Shown here piece after piece: positions 38,507-63,086 of a stretch of 64,000 nt of DNA. Position numbers and translations under genes: made by a program. This DNA comes from Fidelibacterota bacterium. Its GTDB lineage: Bacteria; Fidelibacterota; UBA8477; JABMPR01. Numbering within the stretch: position 1 is the first letter of the stretch; each line of letters starts with the position of its first letter. The notes beneath the pieces were generated by a model. It worked only from the letters and a program-made list of their open reading frames with translations. It did no database searches and had not been told where the DNA came from. The stretch is from positions 62,001 to 126,000 of the forward strand of contig JAERTJ010000142.1 in assembly GCA_016844945.1 (NCBI GenBank), written 5' to 3'.

Positions 38507-39685
38507 CTAATGAACGGTGTGATCGATAGATTTTTGAAGTTTAGGATCACCCATGGCAATGACTGGATCACTACCCATCCTGAAGAACAACCACCAGACA
38601 AAGATACCACCCATTCCCAGGAGGGTCGTGACGTGCATCCAGGATATCTGGAAATGATTATCATTGAACGTGGGGTTAACCATCCAGAAATGATCTACAA
38701 AGTGCATAAAGATGATCAGGCTTGCTAAGGAGACAATTAACACAGGAACCCGTTTGACAGCCCTGAATGCCAACATGATAAAGGGAACAATAAAATGGAA
38801 GATGATAAGAAACAGACTCACACCCTTCCAGCCATGCTCCCAACGATGGATAAACCAGAGGGTTTCTTCTGGAATATTACCATACCAGATCAGGAAGTAT
38901 TGAGAACCACCGATGTAGGCCCACCACGCCGTGAAAGCGAACAGGAATTTACCAAAATCATGGGTGTGTTCAGCAGTCACTATGTCACCTGCACCATTTC
39001 TCCGCAACATGATTGCCAACAGGGAGAGCAGTGCCAGGCCACCTAAAAAACCACCTGAGAACACATAGACACCAAATATTGTTGAAAACCAGTGTGGATC
39101 AAGACTCATAAGCCAATCAAAGGCAAAAACAGTAACGGTCAGAGCAAAAAGAACTGTGCCACCTGCAGCTTTACGGCGCATTTTTCCCAGACTTTCTGCA
39201 TCACCACCATCTTGTGCCAGAGAGAGTACACGGAGACCGCGAGCCAGCCAGGTCCAGATTACAAAGATGAGCACATTCCGGATGATAAAAAAGGTGGTGT
39301 TGAGATAAGGTGCCTTCCATTGAAGGATAGGATCGTGAGCCACGGCTTCCTCATGTGTCCAATGGAAAAGATCATGCATCCCAAAAAACAATGGAATCAT
39401 TAAAACGCCCATTATGGGAAGCGTACAAGCCAGGTTTTCTGCCACGCGTCGCATGACAACCCCCCAATAGGCACCGGTTATGTGATGAATCAGAACAAAG
39501 AAAAGGCCACCAAGACCAAGGGTTGTTAGAAAAGTAAAAGCTGTTAGATAGGCCTGGAAGAATTGTGCATGATCCATAAATGCGCCTACAACAGAAAGGA
39601 GCAGACCAACCACACCAACGATCAATGCTTTTTGAGCAAAGGATCCAGTCTCTAATAATTCGTATGTTTTGTTGTCGAATTTCAT
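38507..39685 (-). CDS. actF: Alternative complex III subunit ActF
   Basis: Multi-TM quinol:cytochrome c oxidoreductase subunit; last gene of the ACIII operon order; ATG at 39685 (MKFDNKTYELLETG) preferred. Confidence 0.85.
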   Translation of the reverse strand: MKFDNKTYELLETGSFAQKALIVGVVGLLLSVVGAFMDHAQFFQAYLTAFTFLTTLGLGGLFFVLIHHITGAYWGVVMRRVAENLACTLPIMGVLMIPLFFGMHDLFHWTHEEAVAHDPILQWKAPYLNTTFFIIRNVLIFVIWTWLARGLRVLSLAQDGGDAESLGKMRRKAAGGTVLFALTVTVFAFDWLMSLDPHWFSTIFGVYVFSGGFLGGLALLSLLAIMLRRNGAGDIVTAEHTHDFGKFLFAFTAWWAYIGGSQYFLIWYGNIPEETLWFIHRWEHGWKGVSLFLIIFHFIVPFIMLAFRAVKRVPVLIVSLASLIIFMHFVDHFWMVNPTFNDNHFQISWMHVTTLLGMGGIFVWWLFFRMGSDPVIAMGDPKLQKSIDHTVH

Positions 39686-39702
39686 AATGCGATCAAAACC
39701 TT

Positions 39703-40278
39703 TTAATTCTGTTGAATGGATCTGATGTAGCCAATGATTGCCCAACGATCTTCCACTGAAACCTGAGCCTTTAATGATGGCATATTTAGCCAGCCTTCAG
39801 ATATGGCATTAAACATGTGCCCATCGCTCAATTTTTTGATGCGTTCATCATGAAAATTGGCTGGTGGAATAGGATATTCGTAATACAGAATCTTCCCTTT
39901 TCCATCTGCGTTCACACCATGACAAGCGGTACAATAAATGTCATAGCGCTCTTTACCACGCTCAAGCATGTCAGAAGTAATAGCCATAGGGGCGTTCATG
40001 ATAAAGTCACCTGCGGCATCTTTACCCAGGAAATAGGCATCATCTTCCCGCAACTGACCACGGGCAACAGTCCCTTCCACGGGTGTCCTCATACTGGCAC
40101 CATCCACAAAGAAATTACTTTCTGATTGTGCCTTGTATTTACCTTGAGAATCCATATTGGGGTTCAGGTGTATCGGTGGTTTTTCTGAAAAATTTCCACG
40201 TCCACACGAGATTACCAGAATCATAATACCAACGGTTAGCATCAGACGAGACAGTGATTTTATTGTATTCATCATCAT
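39703..40278 (-). CDS. actE: Alternative complex III subunit ActE, monoheme cytochrome c lipoprotein
   Basis: Lipobox VISC; heme motif YCTACHGVNADGKG. Confidence 0.9.
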   Translation of the reverse strand: MMMNTIKSLSRLMLTVGIMILVISCGRGNFSEKPPIHLNPNMDSQGKYKAQSESNFFVDGASMRTPVEGTVARGQLREDDAYFLGKDAAGDFIMNAPMAITSDMLERGKERYDIYCTACHGVNADGKGKILYYEYPIPPANFHDERIKKLSDGHMFNAISEGWLNMPSLKAQVSVEDRWAIIGYIRSIQQN

Positions 40279-40281
40279 CTC

Positions 40282-40815
40282 CTACTCGCCTGCCACAAGT
40301 TCGACATCGGTTCCACCAATTGAACTGAGGAACTCCTGGACTTGCGTGTCATCAAACTTTTCATCATCTGATTCAATACTGACATAAAAGGCATCATCAG
40401 TCACTTTCGCAAACTTGTCTGAATAAAAAACAGGGTGGTGCAAGCGAGGCAAACGGTTCAAGTGAAACATTCCCAGCACCGCTCCAAAGGCACCAAACAA
40501 CACAAATAGGGCAAAGGTGACAATGATAAATGCCTGCCAACTGAAGAATGGTTTCCCTGATATCACCAGGGGATACTCAACTGCAGCAATCCAGTATTGA
40601 AGCCCCATTCCTATTGAGGCACCTGTAAGTGTCATGCCTCCTACGATATAACCGAGAGGAGACCGCTTGAGACCCATGGCATCATCCATTCCATGAATGG
40701 GAAAGGGTGAATGACAGTCAAACTTCTTATATCCGGCATCGCGGACTTTCTTGGCGGCTTCAATAAGCTCAGCAGGATTAGCAAAACGAGCAAGCGCTCC
40801 TAATGTTTGACTCAT
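40282..40815 (-). CDS. actD: Alternative complex III subunit ActD
   Basis: DUF3341-type: [50 protein letters not shown]. Confidence 0.93.
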
Positions 40816-42248
40816 TTGGCACCTCCACTCTGTTTGGCTGGTTTTTCATTGGAATGATAATGATGGGGGTCTGCTTCTGGCATAACACCTTTAACTTCAG
40901 CAAGAGCCACCATGGGTAGAAACCTCAAGAACAGCAGGAAGAAAGTGAAAAACAATCCAAAACTTCCCACAAAGGTCAGAATATCCCAGATGGATGGTGA
41001 GTAGTAGTCCCAACTTGAAGGCAGAAAATCTCGTGATAGGGACGTCACTGTAATAACAAATCTTTCAAACCACATACCAATATTTACAAAAATGGAAGCC
41101 ACAAACATCACAGGGATACTACGCCGTAATTTTTTGAACCAGAATATCTGCGGGGTAATCACATTACATAAGAACATGATCCAGTATGCCCAGGCATAGG
41201 GTCCAAAAGCTCTATTGATAAAAGCAAAAACTTCGAATTGATTCCCAGAATACCAGGCAATAAAGAACTCAGTCAAATAGGCATAGCCCACCATGGAGCC
41301 AGTTACTAAAATGATTTTATTCATTTTCTCAAGATGGCCGATGGTGATAATGTCTTCCAGACCATATATCTTCCGGGCAATAATTGCCAGGGTCATCACC
41401 ATACCAAAACCAGAGAACACGGCACCTGCTACGAAATAAGGTGGGAAAATTGTTGTATGCCAACCTGGTATCAAACTCGTTGCAAAGTCTGTTGCAACAA
41501 CTGAGTGGACTGAAAGTACCAGAGGGGTAGCCAACCCGGCTAACATGAGATATGCTTTTTCATAGTGCTGCCACTGACGATTTCCACCTCTCCAACCCAG
41601 GGCAAAGAAGCCGAGAACCTTTTTACGAAGCTTAGTTGCTCGATCACGAAGGGTTGCCAGATCAGGAATAAGACCAACGTACCAGAACAGGGTTGATACG
41701 GTAAAATAGGTACCAACTGCAAAAATATCCCAGAGGAGCGGGCTTCTGAAGTTGGGCCAGATCAACATCTGATTTGGTACGGGAAACATATAATATGCCA
41801 ACCAGATACGACCGACATGAATTCCCGGAAAAACCAACGCTGAAATAACGGCAAAAATAGTCATGGCTTCAGCAAAACGGTTAATCGCAGTCCGCCATTG
41901 TTGTCTCAGGAGAAACAAAATGGCTGAAATCAAGGTTCCGGCATGTCCAATACCCACCCAGAACACAAAATTTACAATTGCCCACCCCCAACCAACGGGA
42001 TTATTCAGACCCCAGATACCGGTACCTTCCCAGACCAGCCAGCCAATGGCTCCCAGGAGAACCATCAATCCAGATACAGCCATGGCAAACAATAGATACC
42101 ATTTCGGAGGGGTTTTTGTTTCAACGATGCCGCTGACTTTATCTGTCAGGGTCGTAAAGGTATGACCGCCAGTCACCAGCGGTTCTTCACCCCCGACAGC
42201 AAGTGCTGCATCGGAATCTCTTTTGGGATGTTTGTTTAATTCGCTCAC
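40812..42248 (-). CDS. actC: Alternative complex III subunit ActC (NrfD/PsrC family)
   Basis: NrfD-like multi-[40 protein letters not shown]. Confidence 0.93.
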
Positions 42249-42282
42249 TTTAGAGTTCCATATAGTTTCATTGCTTCAATCA

Positions 42283-45200
42283 CTACGCACCATGTCCATG
42301 GGCGCTATGTTCATCATCACCCATCTCAACCAGAGCAGGATTCGGGTTACGCAGTTTGGCTCCATAACTGGTACGTGGTTGCAGATTCAGTTCACCCAAT
42401 AAGGCATAATCACGGTTTTGTGCTTTAATTTTGGAAACTTCGCTGTTTGGATCATTGATGTTTCCAAAGGCAATAGCATCAGTGGGACAAGCCTGTTGAC
42501 AGGCGACGACCACATCGCCATCTTCAAGTTCTCGACCTTCGTTTTTAACCTCAATCTTAGCCACATTGATACGTTGGACACAGAAAGTACATTTCTCCAT
42601 GACTCCCCGGAACCTGACAGAAACATCAGGGTTCATAGCCATCTCAACAATCTCAGGCATATCCTTTGTGTAGTTGAAGAAGTTGAATCGACGCACTTTA
42701 TAAGGACAGTTGTTCGCACAATAACGCGTACCAATGCAGCGGTTGTAGGCCATTTCGTTCAGACCTTCCTCGCTGTGCGTGGTAGCTGCTACGGGGCAAA
42801 CACCCTCACAAGGCGCCATCTCACAGTGCTGACAGGCAATGGGCTGAAAAATCATTTCTGGATCTTCAACATCACCCGTGTAATAACGATCAAGACGAAT
42901 CCAGCTCATATCGCGGCCATTGCTGACCTCTTCTTTACCTATGACTGGAATATTGTTTTCACTCTGACAGGCAATAGTACATGCAGAACAGCCGGTACAA
43001 CTGGTGAGATCAATTGACATGCCCCACTGGTTACCATCAGAATAATCATGCTCTTTCCACAAGCCCTTGAGCTCTTGCTTCTCAGCAAAAGCCATAGCGA
43101 ATTCCGGGTCCTCCTTGTAATCAGCAAGCGTGCTTTCGCGAACGATGGTGGGCAATCTTTCCTGGATGGCATCAGCAGCCAGTTTTTCCTCATCAAAGCC
43201 ATGGTTATCCTGAACACAAGCCAGGGTATAGCTTCCAAATGCTTTTTCGGCGGAAAAACCACTTGAGATATGCATGCCTGAGGAACTTCTTAATGTACTG
43301 ACATTAGAACCCACGCCATTAGAAACACGACCAATATTGCGGCCATAACCTAACTCAAGGGCAATGGTATTATCCGCCATTCCCGGCTGAATCCAGACAG
43401 GTAGTGTCACATCGACACCATTATGGCTAATTTTCAATAGATCTTCATTTTTAACCTGGAGGTGTTTCGCAGTATTGGCACCTAATAGCGCCACATTATC
43501 CCAGGTAACCTTTGTAACGGGATCAGGTAATTCCTGCATCCAACCATTGTTGGCATATCGGCCGTCAAAACTGGTAAAAGATGCTGTGAAAATGACCTCA
43601 ATGTCAGAAACTGATGCTGACGAGGCATAGTAGCGCCCCATGGAAACAACACCCTGAGCTCTGGCTTTATTCAGGACAACAGGAGTTTCACGATTTGTTT
43701 CATAGAAACCATCATGAACAACTTTTCGCCAGGCTTTGTCAAATCCACTCTCGCCAAGAATACCTTTCCATGTCTCTTGTACCACGTCATAGGCAGTCAC
43801 TGCTTCATCAGAGATCAGGTCAGCTAAGACATCAAGATTACTTTTGCCATCAAACAGCGGAGCAATCAAGGGTTGAATGATTCCGGCGCCACCATATCCA
43901 GACACATCACCCCAACTCTCCAGAAAATGGGCGGCTGGAATGTGCCAGGATGTTTTTGAGGATGTTTCATCAACATGTGATGATAGATGGACTGAGTAAT
44001 CCACCTTACTCAAGCCCTTAAGAAAGTCCACATCAGCCGGACTTTGATAGACAGGGTTTCCACCGAGTATAACAAGTGATTGTATCTTGCCGGCATTCAT
44101 GTCTTTGCCCAGGTCTACAAATGATTTCAGGTTAGAAACTTGCATATCGGGGTTCACAGAATACGACACTGTTTTGTCGGTATTACCCAATGCATTATTC
44201 ATTAATGCAATGAGGGTGTGAACCTCTGCAGGTTGTCGTCGACCACCTACAATAAGAGATTGTCCCTTGTTAGCGATTAGATCTTTCGCCAGTTCTGAAA
44301 TCCATTTCTTATCGAATTCAGCATTAACTCTTGGGGCACTGATGTCTAACCCTTGATTGCTCAGCTCATGCGTTAGCGCTGCGGCAAACATACCGACCTG
44401 GCTATTCTGTACTCTGAGACGATGATCTGCCATACCACCTGTAATGGTGTAAGTACCTTCCACCACATAGAGACGATTCATACTGTCTTTTTCTGACTGC
44501 ACTTTGCGTCGCGATGCAAAATCTCGGGCATGGGGGATATCATTGCTATCCATCTGTAGGAAGTCTGAATCCAGAGAAAGAACGACATTGGCTTTTTTGA
44601 ACGTATAGTTGGGTTTGGCTGCTGAACCAGTAGCCGCCTCAACTCCAGCAATTATATTTTCATCGCTAACACTATCATAGGTAACCCAGCGGGCTCTTGG
44701 GTATTTTTTGATGAATGCTTCACTCAGGCGCATCATGGAAGGAGATGCAAAACCTTCTGTGAGAATTGCTAAACCTTCACCACCATTTTCTGCATACTTC
44801 TCAGCTTCTTGCATCCAGGCTCTACGATAGGCATCCCATTTGGAATTTTTACCTTTGTGCAAAACCACCTGAGATCGGTCTGGATCGTAAAGGTTGAGCA
44901 TTTCTGCCTGCATAAAAACATTGGAAGAACCACCTGAAGCTGGATGGCTTTTGTTGCCCTCAATTTTTGTGGGCCGACCTTCGTGGCTCTCTACCAGAAG
45001 ACCAAAGGATTCGGTTCCAAAAGGCATGTTGGTAGCGTAATACTGTGGTTTTCCAGGGATGACTTCTTCAGGTTTAACCACATACGGAATGATTTTCTCA
45101 ACGGGGCGACGGCAGCTGGTAAGACCAGCCAGGGCCATGGATGCCCCCATGAGACTCAAAAATTTTCTTCGTGAGACAGGGTTTTTCAGTTCATCGGCAC

Positions 45201-45330
45201 CTTCTGGAAACTCCTTCTCGACCAACTCCTTAAACTCAGGTGTTTCAGCGAGATGATCCAGACTTCGCCAATAGGTTTTTCCCTGTGTATTGGCTTTTAT
45301 TGTATTACTCATCTGTGACATCCTGTACAA
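42283..45330 (-). CDS. actB: Alternative complex III subunit ActB (molybdopterin-oxidoreductase-like plus 4Fe-4S domains)
   Basis: SRRKFLSLMGASMALAGLTSCRRP; C-terminal FeS motifs CTGCSACTIACQ, CQHCEMAPCEGVCP, CIGTRYCANNCPYKVRRF, CTFCVQRI...CQQACPTDAI. Confidence 0.95.
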   Translation of the reverse strand: MYRMSQMSNTIKANTQGKTYWRSLDHLAETPEFKELVEKEFPEGADELKNPVSRRKFLSLMGASMALAGLTSCRRPVEKIIPYVVKPEEVIPGKPQYYATNMPFGTESFGLLVESHEGRPTKIEGNKSHPASGGSSNVFMQAEMLNLYDPDRSQVVLHKGKNSKWDAYRRAWMQEAEKYAENGGEGLAILTEGFASPSMMRLSEAFIKKYPRARWVTYDSVSDENIIAGVEAATGSAAKPNYTFKKANVVLSLDSDFLQMDSNDIPHARDFASRRKVQSEKDSMNRLYVVEGTYTITGGMADHRLRVQNSQVGMFAAALTHELSNQGLDISAPRVNAEFDKKWISELAKDLIANKGQSLIVGGRRQPAEVHTLIALMNNALGNTDKTVSYSVNPDMQVSNLKSFVDLGKDMNAGKIQSLVILGGNPVYQSPADVDFLKGLSKVDYSVHLSSHVDETSSKTSWHIPAAHFLESWGDVSGYGGAGIIQPLIAPLFDGKSNLDVLADLISDEAVTAYDVVQETWKGILGESGFDKAWRKVVHDGFYETNRETPVVLNKARAQGVVSMGRYYASSASVSDIEVIFTASFTSFDGRYANNGWMQELPDPVTKVTWDNVALLGANTAKHLQVKNEDLLKISHNGVDVTLPVWIQPGMADNTIALELGYGRNIGRVSNGVGSNVSTLRSSSGMHISSGFSAEKAFGSYTLACVQDNHGFDEEKLAADAIQERLPTIVRESTLADYKEDPEFAMAFAEKQELKGLWKEHDYSDGNQWGMSIDLTSCTGCSACTIACQSENNIPVIGKEEVSNGRDMSWIRLDRYYTGDVEDPEMIFQPIACQHCEMAPCEGVCPVAATTHSEEGLNEMAYNRCIGTRYCANNCPYKVRRFNFFNYTKDMPEIVEMAMNPDVSVRFRGVMEKCTFCVQRINVAKIEVKNEGRELEDGDVVVACQQACPTDAIAFGNINDPNSEVSKIKAQNRDYALLGELNLQPRTSYGAKLRNPNPALVEMGDDEHSAHGHGA

Positions 45331-45959
45331 TCCGTGATGGGGGCTTTGATTTTTAGCCGCTCTATCTGTTTTGCTGCAAATTCAGCCTGATTGGCTGGTG
45401 GTGTCCAATTCATATTCGTAATCTCGCTGGCTGGACGCAGGTGATCCTCTGGATTGCGATGGCAGGTTAAGCACCACCCCATGCTCAATGTTTCATGCTG
45501 AGCCACCACTTCCATTTCAGCGACATTGCCATGACAGCTGGCACACCCGACACCCACATTGATGTGAGCGGAATGATCAAAATAGACATAGTCAGGTGAT
45601 TTATGAATGCGGACCCACTCCAGGGGTTTTCCACTACTAAAGCTTTCCCGAACAAGGGCCAACTTCTCGCTATCAGCCTTGATCATGTTGTGACAATTCA
45701 TACAGGTCTTCGTTGGCGGCAAACCAGCAACTGGAGAAGACTCCACACCGGTATGACAAAAACGACAGTCTAACCCGAGATCCCTGGCATGTACTTTATG
45801 ACTGTAGGGGACGGGTTGTGTAGGACGATAACCAACATCTGTATACGAGGGTGATGCATAATACCAGACCAGACCGACGATCATAATCAGAGTCAAGCCT
45901 GCACCAACGGCAACATATAGAGGCACCTTATTCGTCCATTTGGGGAATATCTGAGCCAA
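45309..45959 (-). CDS. actA: Alternative complex III subunit ActA, pentaheme cytochrome c
   Basis: Five CXXCH motifs: CRFCH, CMNCH, CASCH, CLTCH, CTGCH; N-terminal TM. Confidence 0.95.
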   Translation of the reverse strand: MAQIFPKWTNKVPLYVAVGAGLTLIMIVGLVWYYASPSYTDVGYRPTQPVPYSHKVHARDLGLDCRFCHTGVESSPVAGLPPTKTCMNCHNMIKADSEKLALVRESFSSGKPLEWVRIHKSPDYVYFDHSAHINVGVGCASCHGNVAEMEVVAQHETLSMGWCLTCHRNPEDHLRPASEITNMNWTPPANQAEFAAKQIERLKIKAPITDCTGCHR

Positions 45960-50753: not shown

Positions 50754-53516
50754 ATGAATAAACACAAATCGATAATTTTTACTCTAACCATAATGGTTGG
50801 GACTTCATCCATGGTCGCCCAAACATCCTCTAGTATTCAGAACAATTCCACATTCGCGGGTAGGGAAGTCCATGAGGAAGATTCTTTAGCCCTGGTTGCA
50901 CTCTACAATGCCACAAATGGAAGTGACTGGGACATCCCCTGGATGTTGGACCTACCGATTTCAACCTGGTATGGTGTGGGAATAGATGATTCAGTTATTG
51001 TCTCGCTTGACTTAAGTGAAAACCATTTAGTTGGTCACATCCCTCTGGAGCTCTGCAGCCTTGAGTCTTTGACCTCTCTCAATCTGAGTGCTAACAATCT
51101 GAGTGGTGGTCTTCCTGAGGAGATTTCTAGTCTTGTCAATTTAAGCATCTTGAATCTCAATTATTGTTCACTGGGTGGCGTTATACCGAGCACTCTTTGG
51201 AATTTAACATCGATACGGCGAATATATCTGTCCTCCAACAACCTCAAGGGTACTCTGCCTCCTGAAGTTGCCAACAATTGGAACATTCAAACACTTGATT
51301 TAAGCTACAATAGACTCTCTGGGGTTCTCCCCCGTGAAATTGGAAATATCATAGCGCTTTATAATTTGGATCTTAGGGGAAATCTATTTTCAGGTCACAT
51401 ACCCCCTGAAATTGGCAATTTGCCCAATTTGAATACTTTAGAACTCAGTATGAATCCCTTTTCTGGTGACATTCCATCAGAGATAGGAAACCTGATTCGT
51501 CTCCGCACGCTGGAAATTCATACGACAAATCTTGATGGCGTCATTCCTCCAGAACTGGGAGCATTAACAAACCTGACCAAGCTAGCCCTTGTGGAAAATA
51601 ATCTAACTGGGGTTATCCCGGCTGAATTGGGACAACTAATAAACCTGGAAATACTTAAGCTTGATCGAAACCAACTCACGGGACCGATACCGCCTGAGCT
51701 CTGCAATTTGACAAACCTGACATATCTCAACCTTCAGCTTAATCATCTCTCTGGTTCAATACCTAATGATATTGGAAACCTCAATAAGTTGACCAAACTC
51801 CAGCTTCGGTCAAATGAACTTACTGGCAATATTCCTCCTGGAATGGGTGAACTAAAAGAGTTGTTTAGACTTGAACTTGGATACAATCAGCTCTCTGGAG
51901 CAATACCCCCAGAATTAGGTCGACTTTCTAACATACGCTATCTATCAATGGAGCACAATCAGCTCTCTGGATCCATCCCTCCTGAGATAGCACAGTTAAA
52001 ATTATTGACTCGGTTAGAGCTCAGTTCAAACCAGCTAAGTGGTGATATTCCTGCAGTAATCGTAACAATGCCGCGCTTAAACAGGCTGTTTCTCTCCGAC
52101 AACCGGTTTCAATCGATACCACCTGAAATAGGGCGGCGAACCGGATTGTTGTGGCTCTCTCTGGATCATAATCAAATTGAGGTTATCCCACCCGAACTTT
52201 GGAGACTAAGCCGTCTCTACGGCGTTGACCTTTCCTACAATCAAATTCATGAGATTAATCTACCAGAGCAACTACCAAACATGGAAAATTTAAATTGTTT
52301 AGATCTTAGTCACAACAATCTGTCTGGTGAGCTTCCATCGCGTTTTGAGAATTTTAACCCAGGCATTTTAATCAAGTTGAACTCAAACAACTTTAGCGGT
52401 GAAATCCCCACCACTTTCAGTCATTTGCGTATGGATTTGGATAGCAATGCTTTGTGCCAACCCTACCCTGAAGCTCAGTGGATTGAACTTGGATATCAGG
52501 ACCAATCGATTTGCCCGCCCATCAGAGTTTCAGAAAGTGATTCTCTCGCGCTGGTAGAGTTGTTTGAATCAACAGACGGACCCGAGTGGATTGACTCCTG
52601 GGATTTGGCCCAACCTGTTTCACAGTGGCATGGGGTTACAATTCGCAACGGGGTTGTAAAGTCCATTAACTTAGCGTTTAACAACTTGAGTGGTCGTATA
52701 CCATCTGCGCTAGGTAGGATGACAGCCCTTACAAATATTGACCTTAGCATGAACCTGCTTGTTGATGATATCCCTGCGTCTATAGGCGACCTCACTCATC
52801 TTAAGTTTCTTAATCTCAGAGAAAACCAATTGACGGGGAGTTTACCGCTTGAGCTCGGCTTGCTGGACAGTCTCAATAGTTTGGATCTGGCGTATAACCA
52901 ATTACAGGGAAGTATCCCTGTAACGCTTGCAGACATGTCTCAATTGGAGCTCCTATGGTTAAACAACAACCAGCTAAATGGTTCAATTCCTGAAGAAATA
53001 GGCAGCCTATCCAAGCTTCGTATTTTATGGTTAGACAACAATGAACTGTCCGGGGTTATTCCCTTCACACTTTGTGATCTTTTTGATAATTGGGTTTATT
53101 TTGAATGGAGTTTTTTCAGCAACAATCTATGTCCTCCATATCCACCATGCTTTGACCAGTGGTCTGAGTATTATTTAGCTGATCAAGACACTTCCACGTG
53201 TAATCCCACTGAAACAATCGACGTCCAGGTTCTCCCTGTTGAAGTTCATTTATTCTCTGCATATCCTAATCCTTTCAACCCAACGACCAGAATCAGCTTT
53301 GTATTGCCAGAACCCGCTCACACAAGCCTCACTATCTTTGATGTTCTGGGCAGAAAAGTCATCGAGCTAACCAACGCCTTTCAGAGCGAAGGGTTTTATG
53401 ATGTTTTGTGGAATGGTTATGATCAATACGGGAATCAGGTAGACGGAGGTGTTTACTTTGCACGCCTGGAAACCGACACGTATAAACAGACAATCAAGAT
53501 GGTATATTTGAAATAG
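50754..53516 (+). CDS. Secreted plant-type leucine-rich-repeat protein, two LRR modules, with C-terminal sorting-like domain
   Basis: Many LxxLxLxxNxLSGxIPxE repeats; duplicated cap (DSLALVALYNATNGSDWD... and DSLALVELFESTDGPEWI...); C-terminus SAYPNPFNPTTRISFVLPE...YKQTIKMVYLK. Confidence 0.9.
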   Translation: MNKHKSIIFTLTIMVGTSSMVAQTSSSIQNNSTFAGREVHEEDSLALVALYNATNGSDWDIPWMLDLPISTWYGVGIDDSVIVSLDLSENHLVGHIPLELCSLESLTSLNLSANNLSGGLPEEISSLVNLSILNLNYCSLGGVIPSTLWNLTSIRRIYLSSNNLKGTLPPEVANNWNIQTLDLSYNRLSGVLPREIGNIIALYNLDLRGNLFSGHIPPEIGNLPNLNTLELSMNPFSGDIPSEIGNLIRLRTLEIHTTNLDGVIPPELGALTNLTKLALVENNLTGVIPAELGQLINLEILKLDRNQLTGPIPPELCNLTNLTYLNLQLNHLSGSIPNDIGNLNKLTKLQLRSNELTGNIPPGMGELKELFRLELGYNQLSGAIPPELGRLSNIRYLSMEHNQLSGSIPPEIAQLKLLTRLELSSNQLSGDIPAVIVTMPRLNRLFLSDNRFQSIPPEIGRRTGLLWLSLDHNQIEVIPPELWRLSRLYGVDLSYNQIHEINLPEQLPNMENLNCLDLSHNNLSGELPSRFENFNPGILIKLNSNNFSGEIPTTFSHLRMDLDSNALCQPYPEAQWIELGYQDQSICPPIRVSESDSLALVELFESTDGPEWIDSWDLAQPVSQWHGVTIRNGVVKSINLAFNNLSGRIPSALGRMTALTNIDLSMNLLVDDIPASIGDLTHLKFLNLRENQLTGSLPLELGLLDSLNSLDLAYNQLQGSIPVTLADMSQLELLWLNNNQLNGSIPEEIGSLSKLRILWLDNNELSGVIPFTLCDLFDNWVYFEWSFFSNNLCPPYPPCFDQWSEYYLADQDTSTCNPTETIDVQVLPVEVHLFSAYPNPFNPTTRISFVLPEPAHTSLTIFDVLGRKVIELTNAFQSEGFYDVLWNGYDQYGNQVDGGVYFARLETDTYKQTIKMVYLK

Positions 53517-58238: not shown

Positions 58239-58697
58239 TTATAAATTCAGCTTCAAGTCATCAATGGCCTGAATGGCTTCTTTGCCAAGCACTTTGATGT
58301 CATTTTCAATTTCATCTCCCTCAAGATCATCAAGTGAAAACCACCGAAGCTCGATGGACTCACCTGAATCAGGAGTCACTTCAGGTGAATCAGCCGAGGC
58401 AAAATAAATCATGTCAATATGTTGATGGTAAGGGTTGATGTTTTCCAATAGCAAATGGCGGGGTCCAGGAATTTCCTGGGCATTTTCAGAATGGATTGTC
58501 GGCATGTCATGGATGAGATCGACATCCAGACCTGTTTCTTCTTTCACTTCGCGAAGTGCAGCAATGTGAGGCAATTCATCCCGATCAATATGACCACCTG
58601 GGGGAAGCCACATTTTGAGGCTACGGTGGAGGTGTAACAGGGTTTTCCCTTGATGAACAACAAATGTGGTGGCGGTAAAGTGACGAGTAATTTCCAT
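58239..58697 (-). CDS. NUDIX hydrolase
   Basis: Nudix box GGHIDRDELPHIAALREVKEETGLDVD. Confidence 0.93.
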   Translation of the reverse strand: MEITRHFTATTFVVHQGKTLLHLHRSLKMWLPPGGHIDRDELPHIAALREVKEETGLDVDLIHDMPTIHSENAQEIPGPRHLLLENINPYHQHIDMIYFASADSPEVTPDSGESIELRWFSLDDLEGDEIENDIKVLGKEAIQAIDDLKLNL

Positions 58698-58903
58698 GTG
58701 GGCTCCTGTGTTTATGCTTTTCCCTGGTGTTAAAATGGACTGGAGTCACATGGTTTCCAAGACTCTTCCCCTATTCATTTTAGTGTTGGGGGAAGACCAT
58801 CTTTGATATAGACTTATGGGCTTGAGTAAATTGTTCTATATGACCATATTCTCTTGCTTGTTTTGACACCATAATATCAATTAAAACCATGTGTTAGAGG
58901 ACT

Positions 58904-61387
58904 TTGAAACTGAAAACCATCAAGGAAATAAAAGGCCGGGTTGAACAGAATCACACTCCAGAGCGAAAAGCATCTTCTGAGGGAAATTTTTATAAACACC
59001 CCGAATCAAATGTCATTGGTCCAGGAATGAACACACGCATTCAGCGTTTAAGAAAGCTCAGTTTCGAAGCCCAACCCAGTCTTTCCATAGAACGTGCATT
59101 ACACCAGACCGCTTTTTACAAAGCGAATTATGGCAAACACTCTATCCCTGTGCTCCGCGCACTCAGCTTTATGGATCATTGTCAGAAAAAATCGCTTTAC
59201 CTTGGTGATGATGAACTCATTGTAGGAGAACGTGGTCCTGCGCCAAAAGCCGTGCCCACTTTTCCTGAACTTACCTGTCATTCCGTTGAAGATTTTCATG
59301 TCCTCAACACACGAGAGCAACAACGTTACACCATCAGCCAATCTGATATTGATATCTACGAGCAAGAGGTCATTCCCTACTGGAAAGATCGAACTCAGCG
59401 TGAGCGCATTTTTAATCATGTTCCTGAGACCTGGAAACGCGCGTACGAAGCTGGGCTTTTCACCGAGTTCATGGAACAGCGCGCACCAGGACATACGGCA
59501 CTGGATGGTAAGATTTACTCTAAAGGGATGTTGGCATTTAAACGCGAGATCCAAAACCACCTCGAGTCATTGGATTACTTGAATGATCCAGAGGCTACAG
59601 ACAAGGCTGAAGAACTCAAAGCCATGGAACTCTCTTGTGACGCGGTTATTCTATTTGCCGAACGCCATGCTGACCTGGCTGAGAATAAGGCGAACACCGA
59701 AACAGATCCCCAACGTAAATTCGAACTTTTAAAAATTGCTGAGGTCTGCCGGCATGTTCCGGCAAATGCTCCCAGAACCTTTTGGGAAGCCTTGCAGATG
59801 TATTGGTTTGTCCATCTAGGAACCATTACCGAGTTGAATGGCTGGGATGCCATGAATCCTGGACATTTTGATCAACACCTCGCCCCTTTTTATGAACGCG
59901 AAATTGCTAAAGGATCCCTGACCCGAGAAGCAGCGAAAGAATTACTGTGTTGTACCTGGATCAAGGTCAATAACCAGACCGCCCCACCCAAGGTTGGAAT
60001 CACTGCCCGGGAAAGTGGCACCTATAATGATTTTACCAATATCAACATTGGCGGCTTGAAAAGAGATGGCTCAGATGGTGTCAGTGACGTTTCGTACATC
60101 ATGTTGGAGGTTATTGAAGAGCTCCACTTACTCCAACCTGGAACATCCGTTCATATCAGCACCAAGACACCTGATAAATTTTTACACGCGGCTTCTAAAG
60201 TGATCCGACAGGGCCATGGATACCCCTCCGTTTTCAGCCCGGAAACCTATATTTCTGAGATGGTAAAGATGGGTAAAACCCTGGAAGATGCCCGGGAGGG
60301 TGGCTGTAGTGGTTGTATCGAAGTCGGAGCGTTTGGAAAAGAGGCTTTTCTTCTTACGGGCTATCTCAATGTCCCCAAAATTCTGGAGGTCACCTTAAAC
60401 AACGGACTCGATCCGGTCACAGGCAAAATGGCTGGGATCAAAACCGGCGACCCAACAACATTTACATCCTATGAACAAGTCTATGATGCCTTTCTGAAGC
60501 AGCTCAATTACATCGTCGACCAAAAAATCAGGGTGAGCAATTATATCGATACCATGTTTGCGAAATATGCACCAGCACCATTTTTGTCAGTGGTTATTGA
60601 GGACTGTATTTCGAAGGGTCGAGACTATTACAACGGCGGTCCGCGATATAATACGAACTATATCCAATGCACGGGTCTGGGTACTGTCACGGATAGTCTC
60701 TCCACCATCAAGAAGCATGTTTTTGAGGATAAGTCCCTTGCTTTTGAAACCTTGCTCGATGCTATTTCCTGTAATTTTGAAGGACAGGAAAAACTGAGGC
60801 AAACCATCGTTAACCGAACCCCTTTCTTTGGCAATGATGATGACTACGCAGATGACATCGCCAAACAGATCTATGAAGATTTGTTGGCTGCCATTGATGG
60901 AAAGCCCAACACCAAGGGGGAGTCTTTTCACCTGAATATGTTATCAACCACCTGCCACATCTACTTTGGTAAAGTTCTGGGAGCGACACCCAATGGTCGT
61001 CTTGCCGGTAAATCCATCTCTGATGGCACCTCTCCCTCACATGGATGTGATGTTAAGGGTCCTTCTGCTGTCATCCGATCTCTAACCAAGTTGGACCATA
61101 CACGCTCTGGTGGCACCCTGTTGAACCAGCGCTTCCTCCCAAGCCTGCTCAAGCGAGATGAGGACATTGAAAAACTGGGGCACCTCATTCGTAGCTATTT
61201 CAGCATGGGCGGACACCATATTCAATTCAATATTGTAGATACTGCGACTTTGCGCGCAGCTCAAAAGAATCCTCAGGACTATAAAGACCTATTGGTTCGA
61301 ATGGCTGGGTACAGCGACTATTTCAATGATATGAATGCTGACCTGCAGCAGGAAGTCATCGACCGCACTGAAAACGAGTCTTTTTAA
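58904..61387 (+). CDS. hypD: Glycyl radical enzyme, trans-4-hydroxy-L-proline dehydratase (HypD)-like
   Basis: Active-site GGCSGCIEVGAFGKEAFLLTGYLNVPKILEVTLNNG (Cys codon 60314-60316, Glu 60320-60322); glycyl radical loop VRMAGYSDYF (Gly codon 61307-61309); long motif agreement with HypD as I recall it (FMEQRAPGHT, NNQxAPPKVGIT, DDYADxI, GGTLLNQRF). Start may be ATG 59027. Confidence 0.85.
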   Translation: MKLKTIKEIKGRVEQNHTPERKASSEGNFYKHPESNVIGPGMNTRIQRLRKLSFEAQPSLSIERALHQTAFYKANYGKHSIPVLRALSFMDHCQKKSLYLGDDELIVGERGPAPKAVPTFPELTCHSVEDFHVLNTREQQRYTISQSDIDIYEQEVIPYWKDRTQRERIFNHVPETWKRAYEAGLFTEFMEQRAPGHTALDGKIYSKGMLAFKREIQNHLESLDYLNDPEATDKAEELKAMELSCDAVILFAERHADLAENKANTETDPQRKFELLKIAEVCRHVPANAPRTFWEALQMYWFVHLGTITELNGWDAMNPGHFDQHLAPFYEREIAKGSLTREAAKELLCCTWIKVNNQTAPPKVGITARESGTYNDFTNINIGGLKRDGSDGVSDVSYIMLEVIEELHLLQPGTSVHISTKTPDKFLHAASKVIRQGHGYPSVFSPETYISEMVKMGKTLEDAREGGCSGCIEVGAFGKEAFLLTGYLNVPKILEVTLNNGLDPVTGKMAGIKTGDPTTFTSYEQVYDAFLKQLNYIVDQKIRVSNYIDTMFAKYAPAPFLSVVIEDCISKGRDYYNGGPRYNTNYIQCTGLGTVTDSLSTIKKHVFEDKSLAFETLLDAISCNFEGQEKLRQTIVNRTPFFGNDDDYADDIAKQIYEDLLAAIDGKPNTKGESFHLNMLSTTCHIYFGKVLGATPNGRLAGKSISDGTSPSHGCDVKGPSAVIRSLTKLDHTRSGGTLLNQRFLPSLLKRDEDIEKLGHLIRSYFSMGGHHIQFNIVDTATLRAAQKNPQDYKDLLVRMAGYSDYFNDMNADLQQEVIDRTENESF

Positions 61388-61411
61388 CCCCTCAGAGTTA
61401 TTGGATTCCTT

Positions 61412-62329
61412 TTGAGCTCCAGTCTGATTTTCGACTTCAAGCGCTATGCTATAAATGATGGACCCGGGGTTCGTATCACCGTCTTTTTTAAAGGGTGTCC
61501 GCTTTCTTGTTTTTGGTGTCACAATCCTGAGAGTCATGAATTCCAAACACAAAAAATGTATACTCGGGATAAATGTATGGCCTGTGGTGACTGTGTTGAA
61601 GCCTGCCCGCAAAGTGCCTGTACCCTGACATCAGATGGAATTGTCACCAACCCCGACCTTTGTCTTTTGTGCGGTAAGTGTGCTGATGTTTGTCCCACCA
61701 GAGCTACAGAAATGTCCGGGGAGCTATTATCTGTCGACCAGGTCATGACGGAAATCAGAAAAGAGCGGGTCTTGATGGATCAATCAGGTGGAGGTGTCAC
61801 ATTCTCAGGTGGAGAACCTCTCATGCATCCCGAATTACTCATTCCTTTATTGGATGCCTGTGGAAGTGAAGGCATCCATCGCTGTGTAGACACCAGTGGG
61901 TTTGCCAATCCAGAACTATTGCTAGAAGTTGCCAGCAAAACGGATTTGTTTCTTTATGATCTAAAACTAATGGACCGTGAGCAACACCTCAAGCATACGG
62001 GGGTCTCCAATGATCAGATTTTAGACAACCTCCGCCTGCTCTCCGAAACTGGGGCTGATATAAACATTCGCATTCCATTAATTACAGGGATAAATGATGA
62101 TGACGAAAACATCAAGAAAACGTCATCCTTTATTGCATCTCTTGCCGGAGTTCCCAAAAAAATCCACTTGCTGCCCTATCACCCCTCAGCTACGCACAAG
62201 CATGAAAAACTGGGACAATCAGAGGCTGTCAGAGCGATAGCCCCTCTAACCGAACCCGGCGATGAAAAACTAAACCACATCATTAAGCTTTTTAAATCAG
62301 ATAGACTCATTGCTTCAGTCGGCGGATAA
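61412..62329 (+). CDS. Glycyl radical enzyme activating enzyme (radical SAM, HypE/PflA family)
   Basis: CX3CX2C motif CPLSCFWCHNPES plus two 4Fe-4S ferredoxin motifs CMACGDCVEACP and CLLCGKCADVCP; TFSGGEPLMHPE. Confidence 0.95.
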   Translation: MSSSLIFDFKRYAINDGPGVRITVFFKGCPLSCFWCHNPESHEFQTQKMYTRDKCMACGDCVEACPQSACTLTSDGIVTNPDLCLLCGKCADVCPTRATEMSGELLSVDQVMTEIRKERVLMDQSGGGVTFSGGEPLMHPELLIPLLDACGSEGIHRCVDTSGFANPELLLEVASKTDLFLYDLKLMDREQHLKHTGVSNDQILDNLRLLSETGADINIRIPLITGINDDDENIKKTSSFIASLAGVPKKIHLLPYHPSATHKHEKLGQSEAVRAIAPLTEPGDEKLNHIIKLFKSDRLIASVGG

Positions 62330-62495: not shown

Positions 62496-63086
62496 GTGTT
62501 AACAAAAACGCAGATGAGATACCGATTTCACTTTTTACGCCCCCTTTTTATTCGTGGTGCTCTCCTTTTGCTGGTTCCCCTTCTTTCTATCCAGGGCCAG
62601 AGAATTCATGTCAACCCCGACACACGCATGAAGGCTGTCTTCCTGATCAATTTCACCAAATACATTAGCTGGACCACACTTGACACCGTTAAAAATTTTA
62701 CCATCGGGGTTTATGGGTTAGATGACATCTTACTACCTCTCAGACAGATGTCTCGAGAACGACAATCTGTAGGTCAAACGATCAAGGTGGAGCGCGTAGC
62801 AACCATAGAAGAAATCGAAGCTTGCGAAATTTTATTTGTTCCTGTAGAACAATCCGAAGCTTTTCATCTGATGCGACCTAACATTCCTCCTGAGAATATT
62901 CTCATGGTGGGTGAGTCTCTTGGCTTTGCAACGAGCGATGGTGCCATAAACTTTGTCAAACGGGAGGGGAAAATTAAACTGGAAGTTAATCGGAAGGCGC
63001 TTCAGGAGGCAAACCTGACAGCCAGCTCACATCTGCTAAAACTGGCTATACTGGTCGGTGAAGAGGATCCTGTCTACCATGATTAG
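62496..63086 (+). CDS. YfiR-like (DUF4154) periplasmic protein
   Basis: [15 protein letters not shown]...[15 protein letters not shown]...[23 protein letters not shown]...[31 protein letters not shown]. Confidence 0.88.

Follow-up and report, generated by a model that had tools for sequence, protein, structure and literature searches.

Hydroxyproline is an amino acid of collagen, and trans-4-hydroxy-L-proline dehydratase (HypD), a glycyl radical enzyme (GRE), is known chiefly as a gut enzyme. In gut Clostridiales the product of HypD is reduced to proline, and a crystallographic and mutagenesis study of the Clostridioides difficile enzyme named 14 hydroxyproline-contacting and catalytic residues, i.e., F152, R156, H160, W277, D278, K326, S334, D339, F340, C434, E436, Y450, T645 and G765 (PMC7077986). 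The hydroxyproline C-N lyase HplG (PDB entry 7vua, as titled) shares with HypD the GRE fold and a role in hydroxyproline degradation, but catalyzes a different reaction.

The DNA analyzed here (the window; 64,000 nucleotides) belongs to a metagenome-assembled genome (MAG) of an uncultivated marine bacterium of the Candidatus Neomarinimicrobiota (Fidelibacterota). It contains two open reading frames of the forward strand, 58904-61387 (827 codons) and 61412-62329 (305 codons), separated by 24 bp. An earlier sequence-only reading took them for a HypD and its activase, an assignment now borne out by the equivalog score, the phylogeny and the active-site residues. The product of the first gene (58910-61387, counted from the start codon preferred below) scored 1183.5 bits against the NCBIfam HypD equivalog NF043068 (cut-off 1100), the next-best model being that of a general GRE subfamily (624 bits), with specific rival models at about 580 bits or less. 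Its best match in the PDB is C. difficile HypD (6vxc; 981 bits, next GRE 499 bits), with which it shares 51.7% identity across 783 residues, as well as having an activase partner (PMC7077986).

Both motifs quoted for the assignment are present. The Cys loop SGCIEVGAFGKEAF (60308-60349, forward strand) contains the thiyl Cys (codon 60314-60316) and the Glu of the CXE motif (codon 60320-60322), aligned to C434 and E436, respectively, and the glycyl-radical loop VRMAGYSDYF (61295-61324, forward strand; PF01228) contains the radical Gly (codon 61307-61309), aligned to G765 of the C. difficile enzyme. In the alignment, all 14 residues named above, including those that bind hydroxyproline, are identical in the window HypD, in the 84 further members of the N-terminally extended clade to which it belongs and in 15 other HypDs; outgroup GREs do not carry most of the HypD-specific ones. 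An AlphaFold2 model, built on an alignment of 27 close sequences and of mediocre quality (mean pLDDT 67.9), also had 6vxc as its best fold match. The genome showed no further PF01228 protein, whether a second GRE or a spare part of the GrcA kind.

The second gene (61412-62329, forward strand) encodes a radical-SAM GRE activase (PF04055, Fer4) with two ferredoxin-like 4Fe-4S motifs and a CX3CX2C motif at 61496-61519 (forward strand). Its best model, NF043069 (HypD activase), beat every other activase model with 349.4 bits, below the curated cut-off of 425, so the protein was classed as a GRE activase that is paired with HypD; its score for TIGR02494 exceeded the cut-off of that model (317.5 versus 174.35 bits). 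This score against its own model is the sole exception among sequence tests that otherwise agree on the identity of both proteins. An activase accompanies hypD in 72 of 81 compared loci, most of the others being interrupted at contig ends, and lies directly 3' of hypD in 71 of these 72 pairs. No other pathway neighbor is conserved in the 81 loci; hypD and the activase gene act as a two-gene cassette, in which the activase is the sole neighbor conserved across phyla. Taken whole, the locus is best explained, with high confidence, as a HypD-activase pair working by the standard mechanism.

A genome scan yielded 506 related stretches, the best 80 of which (76-86% identity) came from Neomarinimicrobiota, Bacteroidota, Desulfuromonadales and others. 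In a FastTree tree of 103 sequences, the 100 HypD rows split from three other GREs (SH-like support 100; the outgroup branches are long), and the window protein fell within the HypD clade together with C. difficile HypD, in agreement with the first reading. The N-extended HypDs form one group of 85 rows from ten phyla (support 82), with the Parabacteroides enzyme as sister. The latter (P. distasonis, plasmid record NZ_OY725750.1, annotated hypD) shows 74% identity to the window protein and the same hypD-activase order, but is devoid of the PERxAxxEGNFY extension. Environmental bacteria such as Carboxylicivirga, Lutibacter, Desulfuromusa and Draconibacterium have HypDs (76-83% identity) with both the extension motif and the gene pair; unlike the window locus, these occur in other phyla, with other flanking genes and ordinary start codons. 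We know of no assayed enzyme of the N-extended clade.

The reaction and its substrate are predicted from the sequence comparison with the C. difficile enzyme. When oxygen is absent, the radical-SAM activase would place a radical on the Gly of VRMAGYSDYF, from which it would move to the Cys of the CIE motif; the resulting thiyl would abstract a hydrogen atom from the C5 position of hydroxyproline, which on losing water would give (S)-1-pyrroline-5-carboxylate (P5C). The surroundings differ from those in C. difficile, since no P5C reductase gene adjoins the pair and the host is respiratory rather than fermenting. An alternative complex III, already noticed in the window, is encoded at 38507-45959, 13-20 kb upstream of hypD, and comprises ActD (PF11821, 209 bits) together with NrfD-like, molybdopterin-like/4Fe-4S and cytochrome c subunits. 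Heme-copper oxidase (cox) genes were detected in 18 of 19 congeners, a cox operon being located on the window's own contig about 5-9 kb past the window end, and clade-II nosZ exceeded its cut-off in 14/19, including the window's genome. N2O reductase has already been published for Marinimicrobia (PMC5688066). The oxidases and nosZ support the facultative or low-oxygen lifestyle that had been proposed, and the pair would presumably be expressed anaerobically.

The fate of P5C was considered across the same 19 congeners. P5C dehydrogenase was over the cut-off in all of them and proline dehydrogenase was present in 18, both sets including all nine HypD carriers, and proC was recognizable in two of these nine (G000 and, just below the cut-off, G014). 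Since every carrier has both dehydrogenases and few have proC, P5C is probably oxidized to glutamate and not turned into proline, the reductive route of clostridial Stickland fermentation; the conversion would most likely proceed via the genome's P5C dehydrogenase and feed respiration on N2O or trace oxygen. The absence of proC next to hypD had been pointed out before, and the flanks of the pair indeed contain none, as is the case across most of the genus, so the locus is not of the clostridial Stickland type; a search of the whole MAG, which had been recommended, did find one proC over the cut-off, on another contig. Its presence makes reduction of P5C possible in this MAG, and HypD might accordingly serve proline synthesis instead of oxidative catabolism. 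We regard this as unlikely, though worth serious consideration: proC went undetected in seven of the nine HypD-carrying congeners, while P5C dehydrogenase is present in all nine, and the reductive clostridial route is the less likely one. Most genomes of the genus are without a recognizable proC although all have P5C dehydrogenase; as MAGs are incomplete, such absences are weak evidence. The simplest reading is that of a facultative bacterium which relies on HypD in the absence of oxygen and oxidizes P5C to glutamate. A search for the proline reductase PrdA gave no match, but as the control genomes gave none either, this does not count as a sign of its absence. Peptidases of the collagenase-like family U32 were found in 15/19 congeners, which says little on collagen use because the family is broadly distributed.

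The sequence-only reading had left room for a shifted substrate, given that the window protein has CIEV and AFGKEAF where the C. difficile enzyme has CVET and CFGKEAY; VRM also replaces VRV ahead of the radical Gly. The noted differences correspond to V435I, T437V, C439A and Y445F. I435, V437 and A439 are invariant in 85/85 clade members, A439 also occurs in 13 of the 15 HypDs outside the extended clade, and the clade has either Y or F at position 445, Y445 being found in 62/85. None of the four positions is among the substrate contacts named for the C. difficile enzyme (PMC7077986). As the varying positions lie outside the contact list and all listed residues are retained, the shift is not supported, and a HypD whose substrate is altered by these changes was rejected on the residue comparison as very unlikely. 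Slightly less probable still is a hydroxyproline-related GRE of other chemistry or substrate, be it a C-N lyase of the HplG type or an N-methyl-cis-4-hydroxyproline dehydratase. The window protein does match 7vua (411 bits), 8iof (435 bits) and 8id1 (425 bits), but with under half the score obtained for HypD, and the HypD-specific residues D278, D339, S334, K326, T645 and Y450, replaced in the tested outgroup GREs, are all present; HplG-like or N-methyl-hydroxyproline chemistry was rejected on these scores and residues.

The pair is inserted between a NUDIX gene (58239-58697, reverse strand; PF00293) and a YfiR/HmsC-like gene (DUF4154; 62496-63086, forward strand), both of which lie outside the pathway. 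In eight congeners (G001, G002, G004, G005, G007, G010, G016 and G017) the two border genes are adjacent, with a gap of 142-271 bp and no hypD between them. One of these, G010, has a close HypD pair elsewhere, near folD (locus L013); as its usual site is empty, the cassette has moved or was gained twice. G017 (L005/L130, G017:C26) carries a divergent HypD (66% identity) without the extension, located after its activase, which suggests separate acquisition. The stretch 50754-53516, 5 kb upstream of the pair, encodes a long protein with leucine-rich repeats that ends, as judged by eye, in a FlgD-like sorting-type domain. Nine of the 19 genus members carry HypD. It was over the cut-off in 21 of 245 genomes of the phylum, and this patchy distribution, together with the mixed phyla in the tree, suggests repeated horizontal transfer. 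Base composition gave no foreign signal of a recent transfer (GC 0.46 for the pair versus 0.45 for its neighbors). That the pair arose by misbinning or misassembly and is foreign to the organism is practically excluded, despite an estimated MAG contamination of about 6%, by its position within a 157-kb contig, this matching GC content and above all the same gene order in independent MAGs (L131 and the loci of the congeners).

Compared with C. difficile HypD, the window protein has an N-terminal extension of 39 codons (58910-59026, forward strand), with the core PERKASSEGNFY at 58958-58993 (forward strand). Members of the extended clade have about 20-50 more N-terminal residues than the C. difficile enzyme, with a core of P[EQ]RxAxxEGNFY followed by GPGMN; in the alignment the motif is found in the 85 clade members, from ten phyla, and is missing from the 15 other HypDs. 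The motif Arg and the Asn of EGNFY each occur in 84/85 clade members, and Arg, Asn and Phe are invariant in the 27-sequence alignment. The pN/pS ratios (0.31-0.53 in the extension, 0.11-0.17 in the core) indicate purifying selection, weaker in the extension, for which AlphaFold2 gave pLDDT values below 50. Four positions of the core carry changes that mark the extended clade, and three of them (M800, Q816 and N824 in the 827-residue numbering) are near or after the radical Gly. The extension and the C-terminal marker changes co-occur as one evolutionary event, which does not in itself prove contact. The extension might pack on the glycyl-radical domain and protect or regulate the radical where the organism is exposed to oxygen, a speculative and rather improbable idea that fits its occurrence in facultative respirers and the location of three of the four marker positions near the C-terminal end.

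The ORF reported at 58904-61387 exists, but the TTG at 58904 is probably not its start, which we place at CTG 58910-58912. This codon is conserved in all eight genus members with the extended form (the window, L012-L016, L007 and L008), each with a Shine-Dalgarno-like stretch 7-10 nt ahead of it; in the window this is the probable Shine-Dalgarno sequence AGAGGA (58896-58901, forward strand), 8 nt upstream of the CTG. In L013 no ATG, GTG or TTG occurs from the upstream stop to the Met of GPGMN. The CTG also aligns with the ATG or GTG starts of L021 and L023, from Campylobacterota MAGs.

The window pair thus belongs to a known family with a standard mechanism, and is distinguished by its host, the probable oxidative outlet, the extension and the CTG start. 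The extension as the mark of a single HypD clade that spans about ten phyla, the likely CTG start of hypD at 58910 and anaerobic hydroxyproline use in Neomarinimicrobiota all appear to be undescribed in the literature searched, an earlier mention being possible. Searches linking hydroxyproline to Marinimicrobia gave a match on Latescibacteria only, and those on marine metagenomes nothing relevant. The congener records are named Neomarinimicrobiota, and some are the isolates SI036 and SI053, in which SI presumably stands for Saanich Inlet; some of the congeners would accordingly come from samples of that type. The extension motif provides a simple sequence tag for its clade and poses a structural question. 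HypD is a two-gene module in Neomarinimicrobiota and about nine other phyla, mostly of environmental bacteria, and this distribution suggests an anaerobic route outside the gut, so far little noticed, by which nitrogen and carbon from collagen are used.
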